From positions 4,278,001 to 4,342,000 of the forward strand of contig NC_133121.1 in assembly GCF_033568475.1 (NCBI RefSeq): 64,000 nt of DNA. The letters run 5' to 3'. The notes beneath the pieces are model-generated. The model was not told the origin of the DNA, made no database searches, and saw only the letters and a program-made list of their open reading frames with translations. Of the stretch, positions 3,661 through 34,559 are shown piece by piece. Source of the DNA: Henckelia pumila (lineage: Eukaryota; Streptophyta; Magnoliopsida; Lamiales; Gesneriaceae). A program made the position numbers and the translations under genes. The first letter of the stretch is position 1, and each line of letters begins with the position of its first letter.

Positions 3661-3769
3661 TTTTAGCTATGTTTCATATGCATATTTTTACTGTTAGTTT
3701 TGCATGCATTCATATGTTTTTGTGGTTGTTTTAGTTAGTTTTAGCATCTTTAATTCATTTATTTGCATA

Positions 3770-3980
3770 CACTAGTAGAATTTCGGCATAATACTTCGCT
3801 ATTTTTTACTTCGGTGATCACTATTGCCGAAGTAATACATAGTTATTTACTGCGGTTATAAAATTAACGAAGTAAAATGCATTTTAGACTTCATCAATTA
3901 AAAAAACGGGCTTCACTTAGATTTTTAAGTGATGATGAAGTAAAAAGGTTAAAATAAAATTTTTAATTTGTACAAGGTGA
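3770..3980 (+). repeat. Left subterminal repeat array of CACTA element 1
   Basis: Repeated GAAGTAA / TTACTTCGG units in both orientations follow the terminal inverted repeat. They are similar to the right end of CACTA element 2 read on the other strand. Confidence 0.75.
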
Positions 3981-5430
3981 AGTAATAGGTTATTTTTCCA
4001 GCGTCGTCTCCCCCTCTCTCAATCTCTCCAAGTGCAAATATATTTAGGGCTTCTTCATTCGTCTCCCTCCTTTCTTTGTTTCGTTCCAGCTTGCTCCCAG
4101 CATATACACATTTAAGCATGTATGGATATATGATGCATCGGAGTTTCTGAAGATGTTGAAGGTTCGGATATGGTTTCCGCAGCTATCGAATCCTCCGACC
4201 GGATGCTCTCACTTTTGAATCGAGTAGTTTCACCGGTTCGTATGAATTTTCGATCTTTCAAATTCCTGTGCCCTATTACTTAATCCCGTATTGTTTCTCT
4301 CCATGTGTAAATCTGAGAAATTTCATCGCCTTCGGGGATTGTTGCTTGTGTTATAGTCGGTGGATGTCGATCACTTTGCAGTTTAGGGCTTGAGGTACTT
4401 GATATTTTCATTTGATTCGTGGTTTTTCTTTTATTCAGTTAATTTTTTTAGTTCTTCAGGGGCCTAATTGTTTGTGTAATTCCTGTTTTTTGGTGATTTG
4501 GTTTGGGTAATTCTAGCATACGAAACATCTGAGGAGTTAGGACCGTTTTGAATTAACAAAACTGGTTCATCTATCTATTTGAACGAATATGTTTGGAACA
4601 TAGGTACAAACAACGTAAACAGATATTAAATTTAGGCACTTTTGATTGAAGACGTATCACTTGGAAAAGCTTAATGTTTCAAGCTTGTTATGTATACTGA
4701 TAAAAGCTTATAATAATCTTATACCGATAAGAAAAATCAGAAATTCGTCTCGAACTCATATTTACATGCATGTTTTGTGAAATTTTTATGCTGACAGTGG
4801 CAAATATTCTGTTTCTTGAGTCACCGGCTGGTTTTGGCTTCTACGCATTTCAAAAAATCCCCATAAAAATCGCTTTAAACTCTCCAACTCACTCCCTCTG
4901 GTACACTTTAATGACAAAGCAAAACCTAGTTTTCTTTCAATTTCTACGTAACGTTGTTTATTACTGGGGAAACTAATTGCATTTTCATCATAACATTAGC
5001 TTCTTGATTTTCGTTTCTAGGCTAAGTTATTTGTGAATGTGAATGAATCTTCTGCTATATCGACGTTGTTATTACTGGGGAACTGTTTGCATTTTTCATC
5101 ATAACGTTAGCTTCTTGATTTTCGTTTCTGGGCTGAGTTATTTGTGAATTTGAATGAATCTTCTGCTATATCAAATGATTTATTTAGAATGCTGTTATTT
5201 CTGAGGCACAAGTTATTTAGTTGCTTGATTTCGGTGGCCAAGCACTTCAGATTTTTCCTATTCCACAAAATTATACCGCATTGCTGCATTGTCCTTTGGT
5301 GAACATTGATTTACGATGTTATTTTAACTGGCTGAGAGTTGAAACATGATCTGGTCTAGTTTACAAAGTGTTGGATGTTTTTTTGTTTACTGTTTCACTT
5401 ATTGTTCTAGGTTTTTAGTTCTACTGAGTA
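3981..5430 (+). other. CACTA element 1 interior: leader-like sequence upstream of the AGO6 fragment
   Basis: CT-rich sequence at about 4006-4090 resembles a 5' UTR. A short open stretch (about 4145-4235, reading VSEDVEGSDMVSAA and onward) ends near a GT site and could be part of a further captured exon I do not recognise. A partly repeated block occurs twice (about 4950-5045 and 5064-5160, sharing GTTATTACTGGGGAACT and CATAACGTTAGCTTCTTGAT). Nothing else is recognisable. Confidence 0.45.
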
Positions 5431-7014
5431 ATGGAATCGCCTGCTTTACCACCAAATGCAAATTTACAAGAAGCAGCACTACCTAAGAGGTGTATAATTG
5501 ACCGAACTGGATTTGGTACATCCGGACGACCCATCTCTTTGCTCGCAAATCACTTCAAAGTCTCACTCAGATGTCCAAATGAAATATTTTATCAGTACAG
5601 TGTAAAATATATTACCATGCTATTTTTTCCAAGTATAGTAATGAGCATACAAGTGAATCATTAGATGGTCCATTTTTAATGCAGGTTTCTATTAGTTCTG
5701 AGGATAATGGAATGGTTGACAGCAAAGGAATTGGGAGGAAGATCGCTGAAAAACTTTACCAAACATACTCTTCTGAATTTGCTGGAAAGAAATTTGCTTA
5801 TGATGGGGAAAAATGTCTATACACAATGGGGCCATTGCCGCAGAACACGTTGGAACTTACAGTGATTCTCGAGGAATTTATTGCCAAGCAATAACGTCCA
5901 TCATTGACCTTTATTTACTTGTTTTTGTGCTTCTTTTTTCCTGGTAAATGCTGCCTGAGTCCATTGCATAGTCCTAGGAGCCCTTCTGATTATGGAGATG
6001 GAAGTGGCTCTGGGAAAAGATCAAAGCACTCTCTGCAGTCGAAAGTTTTTAAATTAGAGATAAGTTATGCTGCAAAAATACCCTTGAAGTCCATTTCTCA
6101 TGTCGTTCAAGGAGCCGAAGCAGAAAATGTGCAAGATGGTCTGAGGGTCCTTGATGTCATATTGAGACAGAAAGCAGCTAATAAGTATACCAAGAATACC
6201 TTTTTGATAGCATATAAGCATTTTTTCTATCATCTTGTACATAAAAAATGGATATTGGCGTAGAGGCTTCCTTTTAGTTCGGCAATAGTTCTTTCATGAT
6301 GATCTTGAAACCGCGACCTGTTGTGGATTTCCTGCTTGCTAACCAAAATTTGAAGGATCATAGCAATATTGACTGGGACAAAGTAAATGGTTCTTAACTA
6401 TTTGCAGTCGCTTTCTATGACCATTATTTCAGTTATGTTTGTCATGATTGTGAGTCTGGAGCACAGGCCAAGAGGATGCTCAAGAATCTGAGGGTTAAGG
6501 CCAGACATATCAACAGGGAGTTCAAAATTATAGGTTTGAGTGAGAAACCATGCAATTAGCAGTTGTGAGTAAATACGTATCTTGCAGTGTTTTGCCTTCA
6601 TTCCTTCCTGTAAGACGTCTAATGGTGGTTATCTTTTCAGTTTTTCATTGGAAGTGAAAAATGGTGGTACTGCTAGAGATGATGGTGGGATTTTGGAGAT
6701 CACTATTTTTCACTACTTTGTGAAACATCGTGGTCAAGAACTAACATTTTCGGCATACATTCCATGCCTTGATGTTGGAAAACCAAAACGACCAAACTAT
6801 TTGCCTTTGGAGGTATATAATTTTTTGGTAATTGTCTTATGAACTCTACTGCAACTTTCTTTCTAAAATTTCTTTATGTATCTTTTTTCAATTAAAGCTA
6901 TGTTCTCTAGTCTCTCTTCAAAGATACAAGAAGGCGTTGTCAGGAATGCAGAGAGAATCCTTAGTTGAACAATCAAGGCAGAAACCTCCAGAGAGAATTC
7001 GAGTTGTCACTAAT
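5431..7014 (+). pseudogene. AGO6-like: AGO6-type Argonaute gene fragment captured by CACTA element 1
   Basis: Exon blocks with splice sites can be read at 5431-5601, from 5685 (to about 5894), about 5970-6190, 6264-6382, 6467-6564, 6641-6812 and 6898-7014. They cover the Argonaute N domain, linker 1, PAZ and the start of linker 2. Telling segments are MVDSKGIGRK, YTMGPLPQN, LEISYAAKIPLKS, RVLDVILRQ, FKIIGLSEKPCN, CLDVGKPKRPNYLPLE and SLVEQSRQKPPERI. The wording fits AGO6 better than AGO4 or AGO9. AGO6 loads 24-nt siRNAs in RNA-directed DNA methylation. The copy is not functional: MID and PIWI are absent, the block before PVVDFLLANQN lacks a conserved stretch of a few dozen residues with a change of frame, the frame closes with TAA at about 5892, and in-frame TAG codons occur in the 6264 and 6467 exons. 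Introns are retained, so the capture was from genomic DNA. Confidence 0.85.
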
Positions 7015-7188
7015 GTAAATTATCTACCCAGTGAACTCTTTCCCTTCCATCTCTTATGTTGTGGTTTCACTTCTTGATTGAATCTTGTAGGCTGTTAGAA
7101 ACTATCAGTATGAATCTTTCTCAAATCATTGCATTCTAAGTTTGTTGCAAGTATCTGATAAAGGATATATGTCTCTGGATTGATTCAG

Positions 7189-7260
7189 GCTTGGAGGCAT
7201 TGGCATGAGAGAACACCTGCAAATATGATAGATCCTATATTGAAGGATGGATTAATGTAT
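7189..7260 (+). pseudogene. Receptor-like kinase exon fragment (CRK/S-domain type) in CACTA element 1
   Basis: After an acceptor-like TTGATTCAG, the sequence reads AWRHWHERTPANMIDPILKD. This matches the kinase-domain block AW.HW..G....DP.L found late in the kinase domain of cysteine-rich and S-domain receptor-like kinases. The block usually begins an exon there, which fits the acceptor seen. Only about 24 codons are present, and the sequence then passes into the subterminal repeat region. It lies on the same strand as the AGO6 fragment about 175 bp upstream and comes from an unrelated gene, so the element is a chimera of at least two host loci. Confidence 0.65.
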
Positions 7261-7489
7261 AGTTTTTTTCCCCAGTGTTTATAGAGTTAGAATTTGATTA
7301 TTTTTTATAGACGCACTTTTAGTTTTGTGGAAATATTTGTGGATACATGCATATTTTTGGGTTATTTTGGTGGATATACTTGTGAATTTATGGATGTTCG
7401 TTGTTTTGAGATGAATAATTTATGAACCTTATTAGTCTATTTTAAGTTTCAAAAATATATTTATATTGTGTAATTATTGTATCTAAATT

Positions 7490-7936
7490 TTAATGTAGTG
7501 GAACAGCAATTTCACTAATTGACGAAGCAAAATAATGTCTTTTACTTTGTCAATTAGTGAAATTGCCGAAGTACAAGACTTTCTTCTACTTCGTCAATTA
7601 CTATCATTGCCGAAGTATAAGCATATTTTTTATTTCGGCAATTTCATTAATCGACGAAGTACAAGCATATCTTTTACTTCGGCAATTTCATTAATTAACG
7701 AAGTAAAAGAAAGTAATTAACGAAGTAAAAAATATGTTTTTACTTCGGCATCGGCCCAATCCTGAACCGATTTTGGCTCCATGAACCGACCAAAGACTTC
7801 GGTAATTTCAGGGCTACGACTTCGGTTATAACACGAAGTAAAACGGTATCTATTACTTCACGTGACACTACTTCGGTAATTATCTATCTACGACTTCAGT
7901 TAATAACCGAAGTCTTTTGCGACTTTTCTACTAGTG
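7490..7936 (+). repeat. Right subterminal repeat array of CACTA element 1
   Basis: A dense run of CTTCGGCAATTTCATTAA / GACGAAGTA units in both orientations ends in the inverted terminal repeat. The last 170 bp match, on the opposite strand, the left 170 bp of CACTA element 2, including the CCGAAGTCTTTGGTCGGTTC block. Confidence 0.8.
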
Positions 7937-8838
7937 ATAATACTCCTCTTGGTCTGTTTTGAAGGAAAACTTGGCATTATTTAGATTTTTGGACAGAAGG
8001 TTGCTCGCTCGAGCGAGCTCATGGTTGCAAGTTTGTTCCAGAAGGTTGCTCGCTCGAGCGAGAGGCTATGCCCGCTCGAGCGAGCTAGACGGGGAAAAAA
8101 GCACTAGTAGAATTTTTGTCTTTTACTTCGCATATTAACTGAAGTCATAGATAGATAAGTACCGAAGTAGATGCACGTGAAGTAATAGGGTACTGTTTTA
8201 CTTCGTTTAATAACCGAAGTCTTAGGTAGAAAATTACCGAAGTCTTTGGTCGGTTCACGGAGTCAAAACCGGTTCAAGATTGGACCGTTTCCGAAGTAAA
8301 AGAATGTCTTTTACTTCAGCAACTTCATTATTTGACGAAGTAATAGCATATATATGACTTCAGCATTTAAATTGAATGATGAGGTAATTGTTATATTTAA
8401 CTTCACATGTTATGTATTGTAGTGAAGTAAAATCATGAATTTTACTTCAGCGGATTCATTAAGTGACGAAGTAATATAATATATATGACTTCGGAATTTA
8501 CATCGATTGATGAAGTAATAACAAAAAATATATATATATATATATGAAAATTAAAATACACTATTTGGATTCATTAATTATCCATTAAAAAACTAAGAAC
8601 ATCCGTATATTTACCAATCCACAATTATGCATCCACGAATCCATGACTATAACCCAAAAAAGTATGTATCCACAATTATTTTCACAAAACTAAAAGTGTT
8701 CTAACAAGTATATTCAATAATCCACAAAAACAAAACAAAGATTTATCTCAATGTGCACGACCAATTTAGGCACCTCAACCAAACATTACTTTACTTCAGG
8801 ACTATAAAACACTTTACAAGACGCCAAGTATTGTCCAT

Positions 8839-9348
8839 TTATATACCTAAGAATACAGTCGAGGGCCTCCCTGTCCTTGACTTGAATTCTGGATGAAACT
8901 TAACCCCCACATAAAACGGATGGTTTGCAAACTCCATATTCTGCATAAATAAGTCGATGGAAAGCAAAATGAAAATTATAAATCCAAGGCAACTTCAGGG
9001 GTGCAAACTAAAGAAAATCAGTAAAGGTACTTAGGAAATAAAGTTTTACTTGGCAGTTCTTGATCCATGGAACTAACTAATCCGAACAGCTAGTGCAAGA
9101 GAAAATGATAGAACGATAGGCACTTTGCAAGAATCAACCTCCATTCGCTTTCCAGTTTCATGCCTTCCTACGAATTTCAAGCCAGATTCTTCTAAAATAC
9201 CAACCATATCTGGATTCACCTGTAACGATCAATACAAAAAATATTCAAGTAAAATGTCAATAAAATAGTTTAGTTTTCCAAATTTTCTCATCAACTAACC
9301 TCATATATGTGCCGATGTCGTTCATCCACATGCTCTGAATTATGGTAG
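8839..9348 (-). pseudogene. CTP synthase 3' exons captured by CACTA element 2
   Basis: Three exons on the minus strand with good acceptors: 9300-9348 (YHNSEHVDERHRHIYE), 9139-9219 (VNPDMVGILEESGLKFVG, then GKRMEV) and 8839-8940 (FANHPFYVGVKFHPEFKS, RTGRPSTVFLG, stop at 8839-8841). They are the C-terminal glutamine amidotransferase part of CTP synthase, which makes CTP from UTP and glutamine in pyrimidine synthesis. FHPEF includes the catalytic-triad His and Glu. The synthase domain and the cysteine elbow are missing, so this is a fragment. The frame across the three exons is open and conservation is high, which suggests a fairly recent capture. The middle exon's donor (GTTGAT) is weak. Confidence 0.85.
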
Positions 9349-10599
9349 CTGCAGAAAAGCAAATACAATTAGAAAGTTTTAAAAAGAATGATTATACAGC
9401 AATCAAAATGTTTCCAATAGCCATTTGCATTCTCTTGAACACTCCATCAGCTGAGATTTCTGAGTACTGATATCTGAATCAGGAGACCAAAGTTCCACTT
9501 GTATGATCCAATTACCCCATTACTAGTCAAAATGAGATCATTTCGACGGGATCTCCATTATTGGATTTCTATTAGAACCGGGAAAAATTAAGATAGACAC
9601 AAACATATAAATTGGATATATAAAGATAAAGAAAACTACCAACCTTAGCCCATGGAAGCTTATCGCCTGAACAACCACGAGGGAAGTAGATAGATGTTGA
9701 TAAGTTATAAAAATGAAAACAAAGAAATTTCTACTACAGATGATGGAAAAAAAATGTTCCTCTTATTAGAGGGAAAAAAGGTGAATATGAAAGCAGGTAA
9801 ACAACGCAAGGTTACGAGATGTAATTATATTAATATATGTATGCATCCGATGTTTGTTTGCTAATTGTGTACTTGCCTGTTAAGGGCAGAGTCAGGAGAC
9901 TTGTACATCCTCTCTCAAGTATTAGCAGTAAAGAGAATAATGTTTTACTAACATCACAAGTAAGTAAATGGCAAGGATTGACAGATGAGCAAAATACCAT
10001 ATTCTACTGGATATAGTGATAGCTAAACACAACAATATAATAGATTTTAAAAATAGTGTGTGGAATCAACTACACCAACAATAAATGCCCTTTTCCCTGA
10101 ATAAATTCTAATATATTATATGTATGCTTCCCTGTATGGAATCAATTTTACATCAATCACAGTAGTGGGTGCCTTTTGGATTTTGCAGCGCTTATTCTAT
10201 GCAGAGGGGAAAGCGTGCAACAGTAATTATGAGCACCATAAATAAAATAGCGTGGAGATTTGAAAATTATTAGATTTTCAAATATTCAAATTGTTTTATA
10301 TATAATAAAAAGTAATATTTTTAAATAAAAAATAATATTTTCATGGATATCTAAATAAAAGATCCAAACTCACAAGAGTTTTTGTGATAATATATAATTC
10401 TTTTAACATGTATAAAGAGAGAATTCTTGTTTGGATAAAATGATACTTGCTCAAAATAAACATGTTTTTAACTATATAATTTTGAATAGAACCATTTATA
10501 AAAAAAATGGGTATAAACATCAGGAAACTTATCATGTGTATAGTTTACACGACTTTCTTCCGAGGAGATGGCAAGAGTCTTATGGCATAGACTTCGAAA

Positions 10600-11079
10600 C
10601 TCTCTGTGGTATACCCATCTCGGTCAGCTACAACCATTTGAAATATCCTAACCCGAATTGGTCTAATCAGACTCCGACTCCATGTTGCACATAGCCTTCG
10701 ACCCTCTCGGCCTCTGATATAAGAAAACAATATTCAATGATTTACACAAAGTAACGCGTGAAGAGAAATGATCAAAGGGATGAAAGTAACGGGTACCCAA
10801 GAATGGAGTACCTTCTTGGAAACTTTGTTCTCTCGGACTTCATATCTTTCTAGGGTTAAATCGCATAACCATGCACCTGGACTTACAAGCTGTCAAGTGA
10901 AGTTTTACAAGCCCAACATTAACTGAATAAATAGAATAAGAAATTTCCTTGACTAAATAAGAAATAAGAAAAATTACCCATTCTTTGGCAAGATCGAGTC
11001 CGAAAAGCCTACGGTAGTGAACGGTGTACTTGAGGCTACCGTGGCTGAAATATGTCGGAAAAGCCAAGGAAAGTGGCAT
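10600..11079 (-). pseudogene. Unidentified captured exons in CACTA element 2
   Basis: Two or three exon-like blocks on the minus strand. One begins with ATG at 11079 (MPLSLAFPTYFSHGS, then VHYRRLFGLDLAKEW) and runs to a GTAATTTT donor at about 10976. The next starts after TTGACAG at about 10895 and reads LVSPGAWLCDLTLERYEVRE to a GT at about 10811. A third starts after TATATCAG at about 10717 and reads RPRGSKAMCNMESESD before a stop. I do not recognise the family. The leader upstream (11080-11340) is CT-rich like a 5' UTR. These may be the 5' exons of a second captured gene placed upstream of the CTP synthase tail. Confidence 0.35.
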
Positions 11080-12698
11080 AAATCTCTCTAAAACTCAAAT
11101 ACAAGCAACCTACAACCATAAAACACCAAATCGATCGGGAAACGGCCGGAAAATGCAACTAATTCCGACAACCGAAATGAGAAATCGAGAATTTTCATAT
11201 GGAATGGGTATCGAGAGATAGATTGCATCGAGATCTTACCAAATATGTAGTCAAATGAATGTTTCCGTCAAAGAGGAGGAGGTGGAAGGCTGGAGATTCA
11301 ATTCGCGGTGCTTGGGCTGAAGAAGAAAGGGGATCGCGTTTTTTTTTCTTCAAAGATAAATGTTAGATAATAGAAAAGTGTGAGGAAATAAAAATCTAAG
11401 GTATCGGTTATTCGTTTTTACTTCATCAGTTATAATTATAAATTTTATTTTTTAATTTTTTACTTCATCAAAACTAATATACCGAAGTAATATGTTTTCA
11501 AAAATTATTAGTGAAGCTCGCGTTTTTTAAATTCTGAAGTAAAATATAATTTTTTACTTCGCCAATGTTATTACCGAAGTTGATTGTTTCATATTACTTC
11601 GTCAATAATAATTGCTGAAGTAATAGGTGGCGAAGTAAAAAGCCAAAATTCTACTAGTGAAGGATTCTGCCCGCTCGAGCGAGCCAGGTTGGAAAATTTA
11701 TCTCCCGGACAGAGAACTGCTCGCTCGAGCGAGACCCTATGCTCGCTCGAGCGAAAATCGCGCACAGAGTTTTTAAAAACGGAAAGTCTTACTCGGGAAG
11801 GATGCCAAATTTTGAAGATCCTTGGGCATATAAATATGATTCTTATCAGCAGAATAAGGGTTGGAGATCAGATTTGAAGGCAAGAGGCGGCTATCACCAT
11901 CAACTCGATTCTTCTTCTTCTTTTATTTTATTTTTGGATTTGATTATTGATGTTTAGAGTAAAAAACTTTTGTTCTTAAATTATGTTGAACGTTGAGTAG
12001 TTTCTTTCTTTCGATCAAGGCCACGTGATTGGGCCAGACAGTTCATGTAAAAACTTGATTTGTTTATTTGAGATTTTCAGACTTGATTGAGTTTATTGAT
12101 TATCAAATTTATCTTTGTCTTACAAATTTCCTGGCCAGTTGTTTGTTTGCTCGTTAATTGATTCCAAGTCGACAGAGGAGGTATCGAATTCGATCACTTT
12201 GATTTTCAACATAGTGTAAAACTGACTAGAAATAGAATTCGGTTTCAGTATGCGGTTTAGGTGTTTACTGAATTTTCACAGTGATTTATGCATTCAAATT
12301 TGATTAGAATTACGAAAGATTAGTTCATCAATATTTGAATAGGTTTGATTATTCTAGAAATAGTCCTTCGAACAAATTAGGAAAATTTCCGTGAATTAAA
12401 ATTAAGTCTGATATCTTAGATCAACTGCTTGTTGCATGAATTGTCTGGTACCTACGTGACCCTTGATCGAACTTTTCCAAAATTTTAAGTAATCCAAAGT
12501 TTTCCAGCTGCGTTTTAATTAAATTGATTTTTATTGAAATTTTAATATTTAGTCTAAAATCTGAAATCATTATTTTTTAATTAGTCTAGATTAAGTAGAA
12601 ATAAATATATTTTGGTAATCATACTTTTACAGTCCATGTGGGTTCGACATCCGAACTTTTGTCCACTTTATTATAATTTAACCTGGTTCGCTTGCCAG

Positions 12699-13913: not shown

Positions 13914-13982
13914 CTGTAGTTCCACTCGTTTCACCGAGAAACTTCAGGGAATCTTACAGCTGTCTTGTATTTCTTTATGTCA

Positions 13983-14067
13983 TTATTGATGGCATCTTTT
14001 ACTAGTGGACGAGGCAGCTGTCTTGAATTTTTTATGCCATTATTGATGGCATCTTTTACTAGTGGAG
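13983..14067 (-). repeat. Duplicated promoter block in the pararetrovirus
   Basis: The block CATTATTGATGGCATCTTTT followed by ACTAGTGGA occurs at 13983-14011 and 14039-14067, 56 bp apart, about 70-170 bp upstream of the TATA box in viral orientation. Duplicated enhancer blocks are common in caulimovirid promoters. Confidence 0.65.
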
Positions 14068-14119
14068 GAATCGCATGCCTGCCACTTTCTTTTGGCTTTA
14101 TTCTCCTCACATGTCTGCT

Positions 14120-15710: not shown

Positions 15711-18045
15711 TTACCGCATAAAATTCCTAGCCTTCTCGTTGATATGCCATCTAATGGCCTCAGATTCTGAAAAAATACCGCTACAGTATCTGCATGGTAT
15801 TTCCCCATCTGGAGTGATTTTGGTAAGGACTGCTGCCCACCAATCGTCGCTGGCATCCGTAAATAATACCATATCATCTTCATCTACGGGTATAGCCATT
15901 TTTGGGAGATTCTTACATATCTTTTTTAATTGGTTTACCCCTTTAGTATGGTCATCGGTCCATATAAACCTAGCATCCTTTTTTAACAAAGGACTGAACA
16001 CCTTTCTGTACATTACTAGATTGTTAATGAACATTCCTGCAAAATTAACTACTCCAAGAAAACTCTGGAGTTGTTTTACATCATTGAGTTTATCTGGAAA
16101 ATTTTTTACCTTTTCCACAATATGGGGTTGTAGAATTATTTCAGTTTCATCAATCTCAATACCGAGGAATTCAATTTTTCTTGTTGCTATGACTGCTTTC
16201 TTTTCAGATAACACCAGTCCTTCTTGTTTACAAATTTTAGAGAAAATCTCTAAGTGTTTAATGTGTTCGTTTATATTTTTTGATGCTATAAGAATATCAT
16301 CAATATAAACAAACATAAAGTTGAAATAATCTTTAAAAAGGTTATCCATCTTTCTTTGAAATATCTGGGGTGCATTAGCCAATCTCATAGGCATAACTTC
16401 CCAAATATAGTGTCCTTGTGGAGTAGAGAAGACTGTGAATTTTTTACTTCCTTCTTCCATTTGAATCTGGTAAAATCCAGACTTACAATCAAATTTTGAG
16501 AACACTTTAGCATTTCGTACACAACTAATTAGGTGTTCTCTACTTGGTATGAAGTACCCATCAAAGTCCAAGATTTTATTAATACCTTGGTAGTTGATAA
16601 CTAACGTGGGTTTCCCTATTTTTATTTCACCATGATTTTTGACTAGAAATCCTGGGCTGCTATATGGTGAAACTCTTTCTTTGATTAGACCAAGGTCCAA
16701 ATGTTCCTTGATAATTATTCTCATATCCCTTTGATCTGTTATGTTCATCGGGATAGGCTTATATCTGACGAATTCATACTCTTTGCCTTCCTTTAGAGTA
16801 AGGCTGACTTTGAGTTGATTTCTATCCCACCATGCCAAAGGATGCTCGTTGTAACTTTCCTTGAGCCTCTTTTTGACATCTTCAAGGGATACCTTATTCT
16901 CTAACTCTATATCTCTGTGATTTAGAGTTACCTTGAGAAGCTCCATATCATCCGTTTGGAGTTCTTGTTCTGTTGTTATTTTCAACATGGTTTCTCCAAA
17001 CCTTCTTGGATCTTTTATTTTTGGGTGAAAAAGTTGTCCTTTATCACCACGCTGGCTGCGAAATATTATCGGCAATTGTCGATAAAAAGCAACCTTGAGT
17101 CTTTGAATGATAATTTTATGATCACAAATTGTAGTGAACATAAGTCTTCTTGACTCATTGTCTTGTGTGTACTTTTTAAACATTTGTAAGAAGTTATTTC
17201 CTAACAGGATATCAGCTCCTGTATCATGGAAATAAATTGGTGGTGTCTTTACCTTGTACCAAAGTGTCTGACATGCTCCTCCCATAAGGATCTCTGCTTG
17301 TTTTATTCATTTGCAAAGAATTAAAATTCTTCGAGAGAAATCTCGTCCAGCAATTTTTGGCAATTCTTCTTCACATTCTTCAGGGAAGACTCCTCTTTTT
17401 GTTGTACAAATTCTTGCTCTGAATCAATATAAGCTGCAAAGTATTCAGCCTTATATTGTTCATACAACATTCCTATCGGAATGTATATGGAGAAAGGACT
17501 TGTTGTCATTTTTTAAAGGGATTACTAAATGGCCCTGCCATTTTTAACAGACTGTGTTGCAACTCAGTAATCCGATTAAGACTATTCACCTTTAGTCTTT
17601 CTAAAGCTTCAGAAGGTAGAGTATGGTTAATCCTTTCTACCTCTTCAATGCGTTCTAGTAAATCATGTTCATGACTTACTAATTTCAACAGTTTCTTCTT
17701 CTTCTGTTTATAAACAGAGTTTTCGAATCTAATTAAGGGATTGTCCCTTATCCAATTCTCTTGGTTTTCCATCTTGCAGAATTTTTATTGAATCCTCCAA
17801 GTCTTCTCTTTTTCCATGAACTCTATTCCTTTTTCAAGGCGTTTCCATGGTTTATGGTTTTCCAGAAATTCTAGGCCAAGAATGAGCTGATCCATTTCTT
17901 TTCCTGGAATTCCACAGATTTGAACTTCCAATTCTCCAATATTTATCACTCCTTGGTAAGTTCCTTTTTCTTGTTGTTTCAAATAGTAAATCGAGTTACA
18001 AGGGAACTGATTCCGATGGCTTGTAATTTCGAATACTATTTTCAC
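15711..18045 (-). pseudogene. Protease, reverse transcriptase and RNase H region of the pararetrovirus
   Basis: The large frame 17285-15711 has an aspartic-protease tail (HDTGADILLGNNFL), reverse transcriptase motifs (FSKFDCKSGFYQIQMEEGS, MPMRLANAPQIFQ, FVYIDDILIAS, LSEKKAVIATRKIEFLG, FLGVVNFAGMFI) and the start of RNase H (LFTDASDDWWAAVL). Shorter frames at 18045-17321 precede it and carry the region upstream of the protease (for example LILGLEFLENHKPW). The wording is of the Caulimoviridae type and not Ty3. It is one block of a broken viral copy. Confidence 0.8.
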
Positions 18046-18132
18046 TTCTTTCCATCCTTCTGAAGATCTAAGTTTTCCTATTATAGAAAACTCCTTTTCT
18101 TCTGATGGAATTTCTTGAATAGGAGATTTGTC

Positions 18133-19101
18133 TCATCTCCTACTTGTCATTCGGTCTCCTTGGAACGATAACCTTCGGGGTTCTATTTTAAGATCTCTGT
18201 ATAGAACAAGTTTGTCTTGAATTTGAATGTCTGTTTCCTGAATTAAAGAAAACTCAATTCTTTCCGGGTATATTGCATGAGCAACTTTTCCAAATATCTC
18301 TGAAATTTCAATGAACTCATTTCTAATAAATAATTCAGAATGATGAGTATTAGAAAGAGCATATGAAATTTGATATGTAATAGAATATGGTCTATTACCT
18401 TCCTTCATTAGTCTTTTTTCCTTGAAGTTTTGATGTAACGTCAAGGCTCGACTAAAATCTCTATCAGCTAAATTGTAGGCTATTCTTGGATAAATAACTC
18501 CCACAATTTTTCCTGCGCACAAATTTCTCGAGATAGTTCCTAGAACCGCATCTTGTATATTCCCCATCCTTTTATCGCATACTACGATGTCTATGGGTGA
18601 ATCTATTCCTTTTTTAAAAGTAGCTTTGATCATAATCTGGATTGCTCCAATATGAATCCAAGACATTGTCTTTGCTACTTCTGCTTTTAATTTCTGTAAT
18701 TCCTCTTGAATTTCTTCAAAGGGAATTAATTGCATCTCAATTTGATTACTGGTTAATTCCATAGGAATCGCCATTTCCCTTCTGGATACCTTATAAATCA
18801 AATTATGTCTTCTTTGTCTTAGCCTTAGGTTTCCTAAGACTCTTTCAACTTGTCCTGCCGAAAATCCTTGGTACTTCTGTAATGTTGGATTTTCTCTCAT
18901 AATCTTTTGGACCATATTATGAGATATCGTGGTTTGACTAAAGAACCCAGCCAAACTTTCATGTGTTTCATGTAGAAACACCTCCTCTTTACTCTGATTC
19001 TGATTCTGATTCTGATTCTGATTCTGATTCATCCTCAGAAACTTCTTGACTAAATAATATCTCTTCTTCGTATATGCTTTCATCTGAGGGGATATCCTCA
19101 A
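18133..19101 (-). pseudogene. Movement protein of the pararetrovirus
   Basis: A 30K-superfamily type movement protein. The core includes IHIGAIQIMIKATFKKGID, the block PIDIVVCDKRM, and GKIVGVIYPRIAYNLADRDF followed by SITYQISYALSNTHHSELF. In living caulimoviruses this protein forms tubules through plasmodesmata. The N-terminus is rich in Asn-Gln repeats and overlaps the end of the coat protein frame, where the same DNA encodes a Ser-Glu run. The open length is about 320 codons. Confidence 0.7.
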
Positions 19102-20407
19102 ATTGATATACTTGGACTAGATCTTGAAAGAAAACCGCATCATCCATATTTGGTGTTGCTTCAAAGAGTTTGACTCCTTTTTTCTCATTTTCTGGACAAT
19201 TTGTAGATATATGTCCTCTTGCTCCATATGTCCAGCAGTTGCAATCCTTAAAACTTTCACTTGCTCTTGTATGAGTTCTTCTGAAAGTTCTTCTTGATGG
19301 TGTTCTTCCCCTGCTTTGTGATGAGCTTGTTACTGGGGATGTTCTTGTAGGTCCACTTTTTTTTCCTGATCTATAAGATCTGGCCTTTTGTTTGGACCAA
19401 AATGTTCTTGGTTTCCAAGAACTTCTCATTCTTTTATTATAGGGATTATTTCTGAATTTATTCCTTTTAAATCCCTGTGATCTATTTTCAATGATCGTTG
19501 GAAGATCATTTTCTCTACAACATAAAGGTGTACGTTTGTCTATACCCCTTATTTTCTTGTAGTTCTTCTGTAATGCTGTCATATGACACCATTCTGCCAA
19601 TTTTCCTTTCAAAAAGGATGCGCGTCTTGCCAATGTATCAAGATGACCTGGAACGTATTCTTTAATCAGCATTTCTCTCCAGGGACTTGGCATTTTTGCG
19701 AAAAATAGCTGAATAGCTACATTTTCCTCGACTCCTGAATTCCATCTGTATTTAGTGAATAACATAATGTATTCATCAACTAAACAGATATCATGTAACT
19801 CGAGGCTATACAGAGCTTGAGTATATCTTCTCTTTTTCTCTGTATCTTGATTATTGAAATAGTCTACCCCTATGAATTGAGCTTTAAATAGGGTGGTCAT
19901 TCTTTCTCCAATCTCGCTGAGGGATTCTCCTGCTAAGATTGATTCCTTCGTATCTGGCATAGTCATCTCCCATGCAATCTTGACTGATCCCATTAGACTC
20001 ATTTCTAGAAGTTTAATGAATCTTTCTTTATTGAGATCTAATGTTCCTGCTGCAATTCTCATAGCTGACGTCCAATCATCTATAAGATCTTCTCTGTTTT
20101 TGAAGTCCAAAACATCAAGGTTTAACATAACCCCGTAAGGATGTATTGGATCTAAAACAGTTTTTCCGTAAGGAGTTTGATGGAGTGGGATTTTACTCCT
20201 TCTTGATCTGGTTCCTGCTGGATGTGAATTTTCTCCAACCTGGAACTCACTATGTGGTTCTTCTGTTTTAACCACATATCTTGGGGAATTCCCTATGGGT
20301 TGTTCACCCTCAAGGGAATTCATTTTTAGATCTACTACTTTGAGATTCGCAAAAGAATCCGCAATATCTTGTAGATCCTCGAGATTTAATCTTTCTAAAG
20401 TACTCAT
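18989..20407 (-). pseudogene. Coat protein of the pararetrovirus
   Basis: A gag-like coat protein of about 470 codons. It has an acidic N-terminus, a helical capsid domain (LIDDWTSAMRIAAGTLDLN, RYTQALYSLELHDICLVDEY, KMPSPWREMLI), a very basic Arg/Lys/Ser-rich stretch, then a CCHC-type zinc finger region (CNCWTYGARGHISTNC) and an acidic C-terminus (SEDESESES). This layout is diagnostic for Caulimoviridae. The start overlaps the stop of the upstream coiled-coil ORF. Confidence 0.8.
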
Positions 20408-21882: not shown

Positions 21883-23132
21883 ATGGATAAAATCGAAGCT
21901 CTCCAAATTCTTGGACTCTTCCATGTCTTCTTCATCTTCCCCGCACATTCGTCTCTGGACGCGTTCCTCTACGGCGGGTGCTCACAGATAAAATATGCAC
22001 CCAACTCCCCCTACCAATCAAATGTCAATTCACTCCTCACCTCCCTCGTGAATTCAGCCACTTACTCTTCCTACAACAAGTACACTATAATGGGCTCCAG
22101 CTCACAAGACGTAGTTTACGGGCTCTACCAATGCCGGGCCGATTTAGCCATGCCGGACTGCGCCACCTGCGTGGCTCGAGCCGTGACCAAGCTCGGCCCG
22201 CTCTGCCCCCAGACATGCGGCGGCGCCATACAGCTGGAAGGCTGCTTCGTCAAGTACGACAACGCTTCGTTCATCGGGGTGGAGGACAAATCGGTGGCGA
22301 TGAAGAAGTGCGGGCCGTCGGATGGTTACAGCTCCGATGAGATGAGCCACCGCGACGCCATGCTGGCGAGCTTGAACGGGGCCGGAGGCGCGTACAGGGT
22401 CGGGGGGTCCGAGGACGTCCAAGGGGTGGCGCAATGCGTGGGAGACTTGACCGCCGGGCAGTGCAAGGACTGCCTCTCGGAGGCGATACGGCGGCTGAAG
22501 GCGGAGTGCGGCGGCGCTGTGTTTGGGGATATGTTCTTGGCCAAGTGTTATGCGAGGTATTCCACCAGTGGTGCCCAGATATACGCAAATCAGCATCATG
22601 GTATAAATAAAATTTTCCCAACTTGAAATATATTTCTAGTGTAATTAAAGTATACACTTTGAAATGGAAAAATTGAAATAATTATATTGTTAACATATTG
22701 TTTTCATTAAATTCAATTACAGAGTCATCTGATCACAGCGAGTCGGAGAAGACATTTGCTATCATTATCGGATTATTGGCCGCAGTCGCCTTGCTCATCA
22801 TCTTTCTCACCTTCTTGAGAAGGTTGTCCCGTGGAAAAGGTGAAACTTTATTTTATTTATATTATTTACAAAAACTCCAATCAAATGATATCACAAATCA
22901 ATTTTAGAAAACACCATGGAAATATTATTTTTTATTTTAGACAAGAGTCATGTCGATGGACCGTCTAATCATGAATATAAATCCATTAAATTATTTGATC
23001 GAGACTACTCTTATTTATTAATTTTTAGCTTATAAAATTCAATCATCCCTTTTAAATTATTAGAAATGTCAAGATTTGTGTAATTTTATTGTATCTAATG
23101 TTTGGTTTACATTTCGTTTTGCAGGTAAATAA
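21883..23132 (+). CDS. PDLP: Plasmodesmata-located protein (two DUF26/Gnk2 domains, one TM)
   Basis: Three exons: 21883-22600, 22723-22839 and 23125-23132, joining in phase to 280 residues. Layout: signal peptide (about 1-24), two DUF26 domains each with the C-x8-C-x2-C signature (CRADLAMPDCATC and CVGDLTAGQCKDC), then a transmembrane helix (AIIIGLLAAVALLIIFLTFL) and a short basic tail ending RGKGK. This is the PDLP architecture, with no kinase. Segments such as LEGCFVKYDNASFIGVEDK place it near PDLP2/PDLP3. PDLPs sit in the plasma membrane at plasmodesmata, promote callose deposition, limit cell-to-cell movement and can bind viral movement-protein tubules. The last exon codes only the final two and a half codons, as in relatives. 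A TATA-like AAATAAATA lies about 100 bp upstream. The exon bases are GC-rich compared with the surroundings. Confidence 0.9.
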
Positions 23133-25440: not shown

Positions 25441-25690
25441 TCGGTCGATGCTACCCCATTCGGATAGTGCCCGAATGGGGTATGAACGATGATTTGATCT
25501 GCAATGATAATTCGGACAGTTCGATCTGGCTTCAGGGCCCATCATCGACCGAGCCGTCCAATGACATGCCATAAACCGAGGCAGTACGGATATGCTAGCT
25601 TGTAAACGGCCCCATAATCAAGATTCTAGATCCACCCGTGTCGAGAATTGGTCATGGCTAGCCACACCTTATTAAGCTAGCCATTGAAAT
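25441..25690. other. GC-richer stretch with a short hairpin, 3' of the torn GST copy
   Basis: It contains a hairpin (CCCCATTCGG, then CCGAATGGGG, at about 25456-25481) and the sequence ATGCCATAAACCGAGGCAGT, which is shared with about 32838-32860. It may include a small inserted element; its limits are unclear. Confidence 0.4.
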
Positions 25691-25706
25691 AAGTTTTGAA
25701 ATAATT

Positions 25707-27088
25707 TCATTCAATTCCATGCATCTTTCTGAGCATCCCCACGAACTCACAAACTTTGTTGCGGATTATTTGACTGAACTTTGACAACACTGTCCCTTTT
25801 CTTACATTTCTCGATCCAAGGTCCAATCTTCCGACACTCATCTTCAATCTTGACATTGCCGGCTCCAAGGGGAGGCGGGTGAGGGGCCTCAATTTTTTTT
25901 TAATTTTTTTTAAGTATTATTTTTTATATTTAAAATATTATGTGAGCATCATTTCTTTAGTAAAAAAAATATTTTTTCCTATTTAAACAAAAAAGTATTT
26001 TTCATTAAATTGATCAACTCATATGAGTTAGGTTATTCAAATTAGGTCAATCATCTTTCATCTATTTATTAAATGGGATTTATTTTTGTCTATTTTTGTA
26101 CTACGGTTGATTTTTTTAATTGATTTAATTGTTGATATCAATATACTAAAATATTTTAATTTGCTTATTCGACAATGATAATGATTTTTACTTAATTAGA
26201 TTATAATTATTTTTTGTTTATGTTACTATTTAAATTATAATATATATTTTTTGTCGGATTTGTTGTGACAAATATATATTATTTATGTTTTCTTAGTTTG
26301 TAGATTCTTATTCTATTTGTATTATGCATTAATTCATCTATGACTCACGATATTTGAATATTCATTGAGTTTTTTTTAGTTTTAGTTGTATTTTTTATAT
26401 TTCGATTCAATTATTTATGTAATTATTTTTGGTTATAAAAATTTAAAAATTTTGATTTTTAGATTATAAAGTACAACTTGCGAATTTGTGGCACCGTGGT
26501 AGAATAATTACCAATGGCACGATGTGCGCCTAAGTGCGAAAATACAGTGCAAACTTTCTTATGCCGAAACCTAAATGTTAAGTCAGCAACACTTTCAAAT
26601 GCCACTTCTTCCCGTCGCATCCGTTTTCAGGACGATCTAGTCACAGTTTTTCACTTCTCAGTGAGTGATAAATTTGTCCCCGGGACTACGTTTTGTATCA
26701 ATATTTAATTATAAAAATTATATAAGCACTATTCCTTGAATAAATGCCTAGGACCTCTAATTAATATTCAGGAAACGACCCTGATTATCTTGAATTCACC
26801 ATAGTTCTCATGATAGGGATCAATCCATGTAGTCAGCATGAGGAGCACGACGCCTACGAACCCGTATTCATCTCTGCCGAAATAGTCCTTTCCCGCATTG
26901 CTCCATTTAGATTCTTCAAAATGTGAATGAACTTTTTCTTAGCACCCCCAAGTTCTTCTCCGTTGCTTTTCCATATTGAGCTCCCACCATAAAAAACCTA
27001 TGGATATTATAAATAAAAAAAATGTTAATTCTGTGTTACATTTCAACATTTTAAAACACAAAATGGAATAATTAAAGAATGTTCATAT
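25707..27088 (-). pseudogene. Tau glutathione transferase pseudogene, exon 2 split by an insertion
   Basis: Minus-strand remnants of the second exon of a tau GST: 26792-26990 (start of the exon and preceding intron, matching about 34900-35120) and 25707-25851 (the C-terminal part, matching 34766-34905, ending in the same MHGIE). A 935-bp insert (25852-26786) separates them, with ATCTT on both sides. Further decay is plain: a different reading near the join, and part of the middle missing compared with the intact gene at 34766-35595. The intron is cut at about 27088 by unrelated sequence. Exon 1 is gone from here, but its first codons and promoter survive at 31990-32165. Confidence 0.8.
25852..26786. 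mobile_element. Insertion of unknown type inside the GST pseudogene
   Basis: A 935-bp AT-rich insert that interrupts the GST exon, flanked by ATCTT (25847-25851 and 26787-26791), most simply a 5-bp target duplication. The left part starts GACATTGCCGGCTCCAAGGG and is followed by T-rich sequence. I see no coding capacity and no clear terminal inverted repeat. The superfamily is unknown. Confidence 0.5.
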
Positions 27089-27439
27089 ACACAGAGCCGT
27101 ATCTGTGATCAATAGGCCTGAGGCGGTATATGAAAAGTGGGCCCTCTTGTTACGGCAAATAACTGTAAAATTTAATTCGCGAATGACATATACATTAAAA
27201 AATATATAAATATACCATAAACAATATATTACGTCAACGAAAAATCAAAAAAAATATTTGAAAAATATATAAATACTATCCTCTACGGTTTATAGTGAAA
27301 ATATTTATCAAATCTGTATAATCCAATTATCGGATCATTTCTTTCTCAATTGACAACATAGCTAGCACATTTACTCTATCCTGCGACATTGTTGACCGAA
27401 GATAATTCTTGATTAACTTCAACTTTGAGAAGCTTTTTT
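27089..27439. other. Short gene-free stretch between GST relic and viral fragment
   Basis: AT-rich. The words CTGAGGCGGTATATGAAAAG and GGGCCCTCTTG at about 27118-27155 look like the edge of an inserted element, but it cannot be delimited. Confidence 0.35.
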
Positions 27440-28075
27440 TGCTGTAAATTTAGGATTTTTGTTTGGAGATCCTTTAAAGTTTCAAGAATCTCTTCTTGTC
27501 TTTTAAGAATTTCTTCGATTTGTCGAGGTATTTCATACAATTGACTGCTGTAATATTGTATCATTTTTTGAATTTCTCTAAGATCTCCGGAGAGCTCAAA
27601 AAAGTCTGGGATAATTTCTAGAAATTGGGAGTTAGAAATCATATTTCTTAATCTTTCAGAGCTCCGTTACTTAAAACATGTTGTAAAGAACTTATTTTAG
27701 CTAGATTCGTTTGTTCATAGAATTTCATATATGAAATTCATCTTGTTCAAACTTTCGTTTGAATTCATGTTTTGTTGAAAATCTTCTCCTCAACAAAGAA
27801 AATAAGATTTAACGAATACTATAATGTCTGAATAATTAACCTAAGATTCTGATATCATTTTTTAGGATAATTTTTTGTACCATGAATAAGCATAAAATCC
27901 TAAGATTTAAGTATTAAATTCCTTATAACTATAAGTATAGAACCTCAAGATTTGAGCACAAATTAACACATATTGAGTACAAGAATTAAACATCAAGTTT
28001 GTGGTCCTAGGGAGTAAATACAAAGAATCTAAAGGGTGGGGAGTTGGACCAAGAAAGGTTTGGGTTTGAGAATTT
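27440..28075 (-). mobile_element. Second endogenous pararetrovirus fragment (leader and first ORF)
   Basis: The minus-strand sequence matches the 20.6-21.2 kb region of the full copy: part of the coiled-coil ORF (27642 leftwards, IPRQIEEILKRQEEILETLK), the segment TTTTGTTGAGGAGAAGATTT, the primer-site region, and the upstream leader with CTCCCTAGGACCAC. It is a short, broken piece of a related but not identical virus. The rest of the genome is absent. Confidence 0.75.
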
Positions 28076-28206
28076 ATTTATAATTGACTCTTTATTTATT
28101 GGTATAACCTAATCGACTCGATTATTTTTTACAAAGATGGATCAAAGTCAAACTGAATTAACCTTTCAAAAGAAATTTATGAGAAAAACTTATAAAAAAT
28201 CTATAT

Positions 28207-28324
28207 AAAATAATATTAGTTAATAACGTTAAAATCTATATCAAAAATAATATTATTTGGGATCCAAAATAATATTAGTTAATAACGTTAAAATCTATAG
28301 CAAAAATAAAATTATTTTAAATAA
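28207..28324. repeat. Tandem duplication, 59-bp unit
   Basis: Two adjacent copies start AAAATAATATTAGTTAATAA at 28207 and 28266 and differ at only a few bases. AT-rich; no function evident. Confidence 0.7.
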
Positions 28325-28359
28325 TCGAGTACTTCTGTTTTTAAAATAAAACAGAAACT

Positions 28360-29036
28360 TAGGGGTGTCAAAAATCAACCCAACCCGTCAACCCGATACG
28401 ATTCAACCCGAAAAATATCAGGTTCGGGTTGGAGGTTTTTGGGTTCGGGTTGAATCGGGTTGACCCAAAAGCCAACCCGAAAAAATTATTCGGGTTCGCG
28501 TTGGGTCGGGTTGGGTTCGGGTTAACCCGAGTTGACCCGAATATTTTTATTATTTCTTTTTTATATATATAATTAAGAAAGATTTGTTACAATTTCATAT
28601 GTTGGTTATTTGAAAAATATTTATTTTATATTGATATAATATATTTTTTTGATTTAATGTTTATTTTGTACAATTTTGATTTTTTAAAATAATATTTTTA
28701 TTTTTTGTAGTAAATAAACTTTAAATTTTTTACAACTAAACTTTCAAATTTAAATTATATATAAGCTTAGATTTTGTTATCATATAATTAAATATAATAA
28801 TATTATTATTATTTTGTGTTTTGAATTTTTATTTAATTATTTTGCAAAAAAAATAAAAGATAATAATAAAAAATCGGGTTGTTCGGGTTGAGCGGGTTGG
28901 TTCGAGTTATACGGGTTCGTGTTCGGGTTGAACATTTTTCGGGTTGGTTCGGGTTCGGGTCGAGTTCGGGTTGAGGACTTTTTAAATATTTTTTTTTTCA
29001 ACCCGATCCGACCCACCCGAATTGACAGTACCCCTA
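28360..29036. mobile_element. hAT-type non-autonomous element with GGTTCGGGTT repeats
   Basis: The ends are TAGGGGTGTCAA and TTGACAGTACCCCTA, nearly inverted. Both subterminal regions are built of CGGGTTGGGTT / AACCCGAACC repeats in opposite orientation, with an AT-rich core. The flanks CAGAAACT and AAAAAACT suggest an imperfect 8-bp duplication. This matches the common plant hAT family beginning TAGGGGTGNCAA. No transposase. Confidence 0.65.
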
Positions 29037-29460
29037 AAAAACTCTACCAATTTAAATGAAAATTTTGAAAACTAAAACCAAATAGTGATTCGGTTGGTTA
29101 ATTCGATTTAATCGGGCCCGAACCTGGGCCGAAACCAGTCATGGGCAGGTCAGTTAATTAAGGGTTGATAAAATACCAACCTGAACTGGACCCGGTCCAT
29201 GGCGTGTAGTCCCGAGCTACAACCACTACGAGTCTCTTAAAATATACGAAACTGCCTTTGGTGTCGGTCTGTGTTTTGACAAGTACAAATAATGTCTGGA
29301 AGTTGCCAACTACCGGATGTTATCGCGTGGCAACCACCTAGGAATAAAGCACTATCAAGGTAGATGGATCATGTTGCTTTAATTCACCTAATTCAATGCA
29401 ATTTCGAGCAACACAAATAAGCCCAAAGCTTATAATGAAGATTATTAAGTTTTTTGGCCA
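29037..29460. other. Upstream region of the phi GST gene
   Basis: No gene seen. The stretch is moderately GC-rich at 29100-29240, possibly a piece of an older insertion, then becomes the GST promoter. Confidence 0.35.
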
Positions 29461-29462
29461 CT

Positions 29463-29471
29463 ATATAAGCT
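29463..29471 (+). promoter_or_regulatory. TATA box of the phi GST gene
   Basis: TATATAAGC lies about 80 bp upstream of the start codon at 29549, a normal spacing for a short 5' UTR. Confidence 0.55.
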
Positions 29472-29548
29472 AAAGGATTTATTTGTCGAGGAAGCCATTT
29501 ATTATATCTTTTAACACAATACATAGTTTTGTTTTTACATTGAGAGAA

Positions 29549-30793
29549 ATGGTGGTTAAAGTATATGGTCCGGCCGATGCAGCTTGCCCACAGAGGGTCT
29601 TAGCCTGCCTTTTCGAGTTAGGGCTCAAGTTCGAGCTCGTACCCATTGATCTCCCATCCGGAGAGCAGAAAAGACCTGAATTTCTACTCAGACAGGTTTC
29701 TTTTTAAAACTATATATATATACTTGCTTATTGATGAATAATATTGAAGATATATTCTAGATAAAATATTACCTAGGGGACAAATTAAATATATATCTTG
29801 AGTAATATTTCTTGCTTTTCGACAGCCCTTTGGACAAGTCCCTGCTATAGAGGATGGCGATTTCAAACTTTTCGGTAATCAACACAATGGAGCCATATTC
29901 ATTCAGGGAATTTTTTTTTTCAATCCCTTTTATATTTGTTTATTTGTAATTTTGATCATCGCGTGTTATAAAATTTCAGTTTTAGTACATTATTTTTGTG
30001 TGTTTTTTTTTTTTGACAATTTTGGTATTTTTAATGATCAGACATCGTGGAACTAATGCTGTACTGATGTGACGTTGATGTATATAGTGTCACGACCAGC
30101 ACTCCAAACATAAAAATACTAGAATATTTGCCAAAAAAAAATATTGAAGGACTAAAACTGAAATTCCATAATATAGATGATCAAAATTGCAAAACGAACA
30201 AACTTAGAGGACAAAAAATGCGGCTTTCACATTCATTTATGCATACATATATATAGTCATATATATATATTGAATCATGCATGCATGGTTTTAAATATAT
30301 TTATATGTTGTTTGGAAAAATATTGACTGAATTTTCTCATGCACATATGTCAGAATCCAGGGCCATAATCAGGTACTACGCAGCAAAATATCAAGGCATA
30401 ACAGGTCTTGTGGGAAACAATTTGGAAGAGAGAGCTCTAGTGGAGCAATGGATGGAGGTGGAAAGCCACAACTACAACCCATTAATTTACGCTATGGTCC
30501 TCGAGGTCATCGTGGCCCCGCGAATGGGCCGGGCCCCAGACACGGAGTTGGTACGCGACCGCGAGGGCAAATTGGGAAAAGTGCTGAACATTTACGAGGA
30601 GAGGTTGTCGAAAACCAAGTACCTCGCCGGAGACCGGTTCACGTTGGCCGATCTTACTCACTTGCCTAATACGAGGTTCTTGATGAATGAAGGTTTCGAG
30701 CATTTGATCAAAGATAGGAAAAATGTGTGCAATTGGTGGGTCGACATCTCGGGCCGTCCGGCTTGGAAGAAAGTGATGCTGCTTCAAAATTGA
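29549..30793 (+). CDS. GSTF: Phi-class glutathione transferase, AN9/TT19 (anthocyanin carrier) type
   Basis: Three exons: 29549-29695, 29826-29874 and 30354-30793, in phase, 211 residues, normal for phi GSTs. The N-terminal thioredoxin-like domain has QPFGQVPAIEDGDFKLFESR (glutathione site) and ends at YYAAKY. The helical domain includes LEERALVEQWMEVESHNYN, KYLAGDRFTLADLTHLPN and the tail ISGRPAWKKVMLLQN. The start MVVKVYG and the ACPQRV block match the petunia AN9 and Arabidopsis TT19/GSTF12 clade, which carries anthocyanins to the vacuole as a ligandin. Around the usual catalytic serine this protein reads PADAACP, with no Ser or Thr, so conjugating activity may be weak. It lies between the torn tau GST copy and a LINE. 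A pigment-transport role is inference from clade features. Confidence 0.88.
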
Positions 30794-30854
30794 AATTAAA
30801 TAAAACCAAATTAATAACATATATGTTGTTTGGCATTTTATAATGAATTTCTTT

Positions 30855-31907
30855 TGAGTAGTCTTTCAATACAAGATCATTCAGCCAAAAAAAAAAATTT
30901 CCCGGGTCCCAAACAAATTGGGATAGGGAAGAAATAACAAAAGAGGCGATCGCATGAGCAACCATGTTAGCCGATCTTCGAACATGTGAAATAGTGATCA
31001 TAGAATGCTGAGACGTCAATAACTGTCGAATGTCAGCCGCAATAGCACCTATATAACTGAAATCCTCCTTCAATCGAGTGACTGCTTGCACCGCTAGGAG
31101 AGAGTCCGATGTGATTTGGTGAAACTGAATACCATATTCCTGGGTAATCTGAAAGCCACCCAAAATTGCCTGAAGTTCGGCCAGTGTGACAGATTGTGGC
31201 CTCTCTAATCTCCTACCAAAAGTCAATACGGGACAACCTACATGGTCCCTAATAACCCCACCAAAGGCATAGCTGTTGGTTCTCTCATTGTATGCCGCAT
31301 CAACATCCATACGTAGACAATTAACCGGTGGAGCAATCCACTTCTCCTCAGATTTGCAAATTAAACCTCGCTCTCATTGCCAAATTTGAGAGCCACCCGA
31401 GCAGAAAGAAAATCACCTAGAAGACTTTCACTCCAATCCACATTCAACACGGCCGAGAACCCCTTCGATTTATGCACCACACACAGCCTCTCACACCAAG
31501 TGGCCCAAGATCTCATAACAAAAACCTCGAAATCCAGCCTGCTTAATGAGTCTTTCATCCATAAGAATATATCAAAGATCTCCAGATGCCACATCTGCTT
31601 CAAAATGACCCAAAACCGGGTACCCTTCCACCATGACTTGACCACGACACAAAAGAATAAAGCGTGGGCTGTGGAGTCACAACTCGAGCAACAAAGTGGG
31701 CACGTTCCAGCCACAGGGACATGGTGAGATAAAAGGTTCTGCGATGTTGGGATATCCTAACTCTGCGGCCTTGCATCCATCCCGAACCGAGTATTTGCCT
31801 TTAGAGTCGAACATCCAAATCCGGAGATCCTCTTGTTGAGTATGCGACAGTGGAATGGCCATAATGTTTTGAGCTATGTGAAGAGGAAAAATTTGTTGGA
31901 TCTTCCC
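30855..31907 (-). mobile_element. 5'-truncated LINE (plant L1 type) with 16-bp target duplication
   Basis: The minus strand carries the 3' end of a plant L1-like LINE. A zinc-finger reverse transcriptase tail comes first (about 31860-31370: LRIWMFDSKGKYSVRDGCKA, then CPLCCSSCDSTAHALFFC). An RNase H-like domain follows (about 31310-30860: VDAAYNERTNSYAFGGVIRD, AELQAILGGF, SDSLLAVQAV, HVRRSANMVAHAIA). The reverse transcriptase and endonuclease are missing. A 16-bp duplication TATAATGAATTTCTTT flanks it (30839-30854 and 31908-31923), typical of target-primed insertion. No long poly-A tail; the 3' end runs into an A-rich target. The zinc-finger and RNase H frames are not continuous. It lies just past the phi GST 3' UTR. 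Confidence 0.85.
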
Positions 31908-31989
31908 TATAATGAATTTCTTTATCAATTGTGCACATACGCATTTTTTTGGTCTTGTCTTTAGTTTTAATTTAAGCTTTTTGGAAAAC

Positions 31990-32165
31990 AACTTTTTGGG
32001 CTTTTACAGTTTTACAATTGGGATCAAAGAGAACAAGATCATCTTTTGACATCTTAATCAAATTTTTTATTGCTTGATTTGATTTTGTGCACGTACCTGT
32101 TTCTAGTACCAAGATTGTGTTGTTTATATAGGGGATCGAGTGTAATGTGCATGCATGCATATTTG
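31990..32165 (-). pseudogene. Exon 1 start and promoter relic of a tau GST copy
   Basis: It matches 35560-35715: the start codon region ([10 protein letters not shown] on the minus strand from 32053), the 5' UTR, the TATA-containing TGTTTATATAGGGGATCGAG and the upstream CATATTTGAAAATCCAATG. Only about ten codons of exon 1 remain before unrelated sequence begins near 32025. It is the 5' end of the same torn gene whose second exon is at 25707-27088. About 5 kb of insertions and the phi GST gene now lie between. Confidence 0.75.
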
Positions 32166-32209
32166 AAAATCCAATGTGGCCATGTGGGTGGGTGTAAATT
32201 TATAAACAT

Positions 32210-34523: not shown

Positions 34524-34525
<2 letters not shown>

Positions 34526-34558: not shown

Positions 34559-34559
<1 letters not shown>

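Follow-up and report, generated by a model that had tools for sequence, protein, structure and literature searches.

A transposon that carries part of a gene for silencing transposons raises the question of whether that part serves the transposon or simply travels with it. Such a case lies in the window analyzed here, a stretch of 64,000 nucleotides of Henckelia pumila (Gesneriaceae; contig NC_133121.1, positions 4,278,001 to 4,342,000, forward strand), where a CACTA element contains a piece of AGO6, an Argonaute that normally helps silence transposons. We read the element, with a probability of roughly 85%, as a gesneriad non-autonomous Pack-CACTA transposon in which a decayed AGO6 piece is most likely passenger DNA doing nothing specific.

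The element, referred to as element 1, spans positions 3770 to 7936 of the window on the plus strand (4,167 bp). The sequence-only reading had described a CACTA element with intact ends and a matching ATA duplication, and this description held in full: CACTAGTAGAA is found without a mismatch at 3770 to 3780 (plus strand) and at 7926 to 7936 (minus strand), and ATA flanks the element at 3767 to 3769 on the left and at 7937 to 7939 on the right, neither copy being assigned a strand. CACTA (En/Spm) elements make a target-site duplication of 3 bp, the length seen here both in element 1 (ATA/ATA) and in a neighboring element 2 (AAG/AAG). For the rice and maize Pack-CACTA set, the Pack-TYPE study gives 5 nt (PMC8903248). 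With at most one mismatch allowed, CACTAGTAGAA occurs 8 times in the window (1.61 expected), a count reached in none of 100 shuffles; the terminal bases pair at 11 of 11 positions in each of the two elements. Subterminal repeats of ATTGCCGAAGTA type (repeat family D2) lie near both ends, as in a member of the CACTA group. The left terminal and subterminal region (3770 to 3985, plus strand) resembles the reverse complement of 11418 to 11659 (repeat pairs I2, 75%, and I6, 70%), and the right subterminal region with its end (7294 to 7936, plus strand) contains a strong foldback at 7490 to 7760. Element 1 contains no open reading frame of at least 120 amino acids, its longest stop-free stretch being 122 codons, and, judged by frame length only, it is without a transposase of its own. 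A search inside the window for an empty copy of the insertion site found none. On the left flank, the frame at 907 to 1764 matches Pfam Transposase_32 ("putative plant transposon protein"), and from this frame elements 1 and 2 can be read as sitting in a retroelement.

Element 2 (8102 to 11659, minus strand) lies 165 bp from element 1 in inverted orientation, has perfect CACTAGTAGAA ends at 8102 and 11659, and belongs by its ends to the same family. Comparison of the window with itself aligned, in inverted arrangement, 3770 to 3926 with 11659 to 11501 (73% over 161 columns) and 7294 to 7913 with 8717 to 8125 (69% over 644 columns). We read the two elements as oppositely oriented, probably diverged members of a single family; same-family Pack-CACTA elements close together are also described in the Pack-TYPE study of Arabidopsis, rice, and maize (PMC8903248). 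Element 2 likewise contains no open reading frame of at least 120 amino acids (longest stop-free stretch, 92 codons). It carries a piece of a CTP synthase gene at 8847 to 9348 (minus strand, limits set by eye), corresponding to the glutamine amidotransferase end and including introns; this cargo matched Pfam GATase at 2.6e-8, and its PDB matches were CTP synthase chains, the best at 8.9e-21. Further cargo of element 2, with no gene assigned to it, lies at about 9350 to 11400. A third CACTA candidate at 33254 to 36582 was rejected: the flanks of its end-like matches are unequal (GAG and GAT), and the self-comparison gave no repeat common to it and element 1 or 2. A 56-bp tandem duplication at 13957 to 14069 contains two CACTAGTAAAA end-like sequences.

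The Argonaute piece inside element 1, a host gene piece of the kind that Pack-CACTA elements carry, runs from 5431 to 7111 on the plus strand and comprises exons 1 to 7 and the start of exon 8, with introns kept. Exon 1 (5431 to 5601) begins at the start codon and is followed by exons 2 (5685 to 5896), 3 (5978 to 6184), 4 (6264 to 6382), 5 (6467 to 6564), 6 (6641 to 6812, PAZ), and 7 (6898 to 7014), and by the first residues of exon 8 (AVRNYQY, 7091 to 7111), after which comes the breakpoint. All seven internal acceptors are AG and six of seven donors are GT, the exception being exon 2, so that the exon-intron series that had been reported from the sequence stands as eight exon pieces. Its proposed limits, 5431 to 7014, were right at the start and too short at the end, which extends to about 7111. 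The claim that the piece covers the N, linker 1, and PAZ parts was borne out for the N and PAZ parts (Pfam ArgoN, 3e-30; PAZ, 2.3e-26); linker 1 gave no Pfam match in the fragment and is mostly missing, the stretch being broken there. The piece ends upstream of the Mid and Piwi domains.

A first homolog search returned 180 matches, and among the best 120 of these the most identical proteins were Phtheirospermum argonaute 16 (74% over 44% of the query) and Striga argonaute 6 (72% over 44% of the query). Full-length relatives were taken from the best 120 of 1361 matches to a kiwifruit Argonaute, the query of a second search. In a maximum-likelihood tree of 44 sequences, where Primulina is the only gesneriad and which was built without Arabidopsis AGO6 and without any protein named AGO9, the fragment is sister to Primulina AGO16 with a support of 100. 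AGO16 is counted here as AGO6, since proteins named AGO6 (from maize, willow, and Forsythia) fall on the same side of the tree. An alignment of 368 residues gives the fragment an identity of 89.1% with AGO16 of Primulina huaijiensis and of 75.3% with the Buddleja protein; its identity to the 13 AGO4-side proteins is 44 to 56%, and the lowest AGO6-side protein stands at 52.5%. The AGO4 side was defined from the tree itself: six of its 13 proteins are named AGO4 at source (P0028, P0040, P0054, P0076, P0080, and P0090), P0035 was labelled AGO4 in this analysis, and the remaining ones carry no AGO4 name. Trees with the fragment constrained to the AGO4 side, or to a position off the AGO6 side, were rejected (p-AU of 1.8e-5 each). 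A further constraint, Lamiales without the fragment, gave a very low p that was set aside, as this constraint also groups Forsythia and Penstemon against the best tree. The sequence-only reading had named the piece AGO6-type and had proposed a phylogeny against AGO4, AGO6, and AGO9; run as AGO6 side against AGO4 side, this comparison placed the fragment on the AGO6 side. As judged from the tree, the fragment belongs to the AGO6 clade of plant Argonautes and not to that of AGO4.

Three in-frame stops interrupt the piece (TAA at 5892 in exon 2, TAG at 6286 in exon 4, and TAG at 6557 in exon 5). In exon 4, at about 6296 to 6303, 36 residues present in Primulina are absent after FFHDD, together with a change of frame; they fall within residues 202 to 250 of the Primulina protein, its Pfam match to linker 1, and make up most of linker 1. 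What stays open is an N-terminal frame of 126 residues over exons 1 and 2. A functional AGO6 would have an open frame including linker 1 and Piwi, and the stops, the linker-1 loss, and the early end leave no such frame. Substitutions tell a similar story. The fragment differs from Primulina at 40 of 368 sites. Each difference was attributed to one of the two according to which residue prevails among 25 AGO6-side proteins (longer AGO6-side rows, picked by hand): the fragment accounts for 23 and Primulina for 4 (p of 3e-4), with 13 of the 40 unassigned. At sites conserved to at least 90% in the same 25 proteins, 13 changes belong to the fragment and a single one to Primulina (binomial p of 0.0018), and the tree branch lengths are 0.116 and 0.022, respectively. 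The contrast is milder for an intact gene of the window, that of a plasmodesmata-located protein (DUF26) at 21883 to 22626, with 0.063 against 0.021 plus 0.018 (shared with a relative); this protein is 92.5% identical to that of Primulina tabacum and 84.2% to that of Dorcoceras over 240 residues (88% and 81%, respectively, by BLASTP). Judged by these identities, the host is probably a gesneriad close to Primulina. By its pattern of change, the AGO piece has evolved as a pseudogene would, and some of the decay could predate capture.

If the AGO6 piece is passenger DNA, the CACTA ends and subterminal repeats would be recognized by a CACTA transposase supplied from elsewhere, and the middle of about 3.3 kb would derive from one host gene at least, AGO6, and perhaps also from a second, taken up as genomic DNA that still has its introns; both the manner of capture and transposition by the CACTA transposase are presumed. 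The AGO6 piece would since have decayed to a pseudogene fragment, one without detectable constraint and probably without function, and any transcript would be a chimeric RNA with a short open frame at most. A spliced transcript is possible, since the start codon opens the piece and most of its splice borders are kept.

Among the alternatives, the one that survives best takes the piece as an anti-silencing cargo, whereby transcripts of the element would give rise to small RNAs matching the host AGO6, AGO6 would be lowered, and RNA-directed DNA methylation would be weakened to the benefit of the element. In rice, the CACTA-borne miR820, whose precursor stem retains similarity to an intron of DRM2, lowers OsDRM2 (PMC3459959), and in maize captured-gene elements, namely, Helitrons, Pack-MULEs, and Sireviruses, act as siRNA reservoirs (PMC13317346). 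The foldback at 7490 to 7760 is indeed strong (z of -13.6, with none of 200 shuffles equally good), and it would be included in any read-through RNA, which could be diced there. This structure stands at the right end of the element, whereas the AGO part itself has no inverted repeat of at least 25 nt with an arm in it; a further search gave two short pairs, of 18 to 21 nt and 71 to 78%, and the AGO stretch tested folds moderately better than its shuffles (z of -2.28, with 4 of 200 equally good). Rfam returned 10 weak matches, none at the gathering score and all at 7505 to 7778, outside the AGO part; among them is a MIR7993-like match at 7556 to 7690, in the subterminal foldback, at 49 bits against a gathering score of 100. 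Some annotated plant microRNAs are perhaps CACTA foldbacks like this one. With the settings of the repeat, fold, and Rfam tools used, no AGO-derived hairpin or microRNA was found, and thus no counterpart of the miR820 hairpin of host silencing-gene sequence. Like the rice element, element 1 carries sequence akin to a DNA methylation pathway gene, but in contrast to the miR820 locus (PMC3459959) this sequence consists of AGO6 exons and introns in one orientation. Moreover, the related element 2 carries CTP synthase, so that nothing special need attach to AGO6 as cargo, which suggests that its choice was incidental. Overall, we consider the anti-silencing explanation unlikely, and the broader proposal that a gesneriad CACTA lineage feeds AGO6-derived small RNAs against the host AGO6, as a second independent case after miR820 and DRM2, somewhat more unlikely.

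It is very improbable that there was no capture and that an old AGO6 pseudogene is flanked by two CACTA ends by chance. The cargo is known from a single copy, as such an origin would allow, but the ATA duplication matches at exactly both ends, and both terminal regions match those of element 2, inverted as expected. Least probable of all is expression of the piece as a short decoy peptide or chimeric exon: the start codon, most splice borders, and the 126-residue frame would permit it, and in soybean, exons of the Tgm-Express1 cargo enter transcripts by splicing (PMC1947982), but the stops at 5892, 6286, and 6557, the frame change in exon 4, and the excess of change at conserved sites argue against it, and any AGO-frame protein beyond the N-terminal 126-residue peptide, a decoy included, is excluded by the stops.

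Besides the decayed AGO6 piece, element 1 as a Pack-CACTA transposon carries further cargo. The region preceding the AGO start codon, 3990 to 5430 (plus strand), may be either the AGO6 leader or part of another captured gene. It includes a tandem duplication (4951 to 5061 and 5063 to 5172, 92%), an acceptor-like AG was noted by reading just 5' of the AGO ATG, and Pfam searches with two pieces of the region gave no match (one query was off by one residue). A possible second captured piece, AWRHWHERTPANMIDPILKDGLM, follows an acceptor-like site at 7189 to 7257 (plus strand), and we take it to resemble cysteine-rich receptor-like kinases; Pfam gave no match and PDB no credible match for it, leaving the receptor-kinase assignment unconfirmed. 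An origin elsewhere in the window was rejected, as the self-comparison gave no nucleotide match, and so was the DUF26 gene at 21883 as its source, this gene being nearest to plasmodesmata-located proteins. Pack-CACTA elements that combine pieces of several loci have been described (PMC8903248; review, PMC13317346).

Pack-CACTA and other Pack-TYPE elements share with element 1 the CACTA ends, the target-site duplication, and the host gene pieces, whereas the gesneriad host, the CACTAGTAGAA ends, and a silencing gene as the identified cargo are particular to the present case (PMC8903248). Soybean Tgm-Express1 is similarly CACTA-type and holds host gene fragments keeping exons and introns, but has five unrelated fragments and sits in a gene intron, in contrast to the one certain fragment of element 1 (PMC1947982). 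No AGO6 piece in a CACTA element was named in the titles and abstract openings of the open-licence literature searched. Element 1 provides a clear CACTA gene capture outside the usual model plants, with a cargo gene whose pathway acts to silence elements of this kind. Together with rice miR820 and DRM2, it raises the question of whether genes of the methylation pathway are captured by CACTA elements at a rate above chance, which a single AGO6 case beside a CTP synthase capture cannot settle.

Elsewhere in the window, endogenous pararetrovirus-like pieces with movement protein, coat-like, and reverse transcriptase domains lie at 15711 to 20407 (minus strand). Repeats of 86 to 94% occupy 25655 to 35715 (25655 to 25853 with 34714 to 34908, 26787 to 27091 with 34902 to 35204, and 32023 to 32176 with 35566 to 35715), and amid them a frame at 30281 to 30793 encodes a glutathione S-transferase domain. 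Ty3-type frames for gag, protease, and reverse transcriptase are present at 60774 to 63447.
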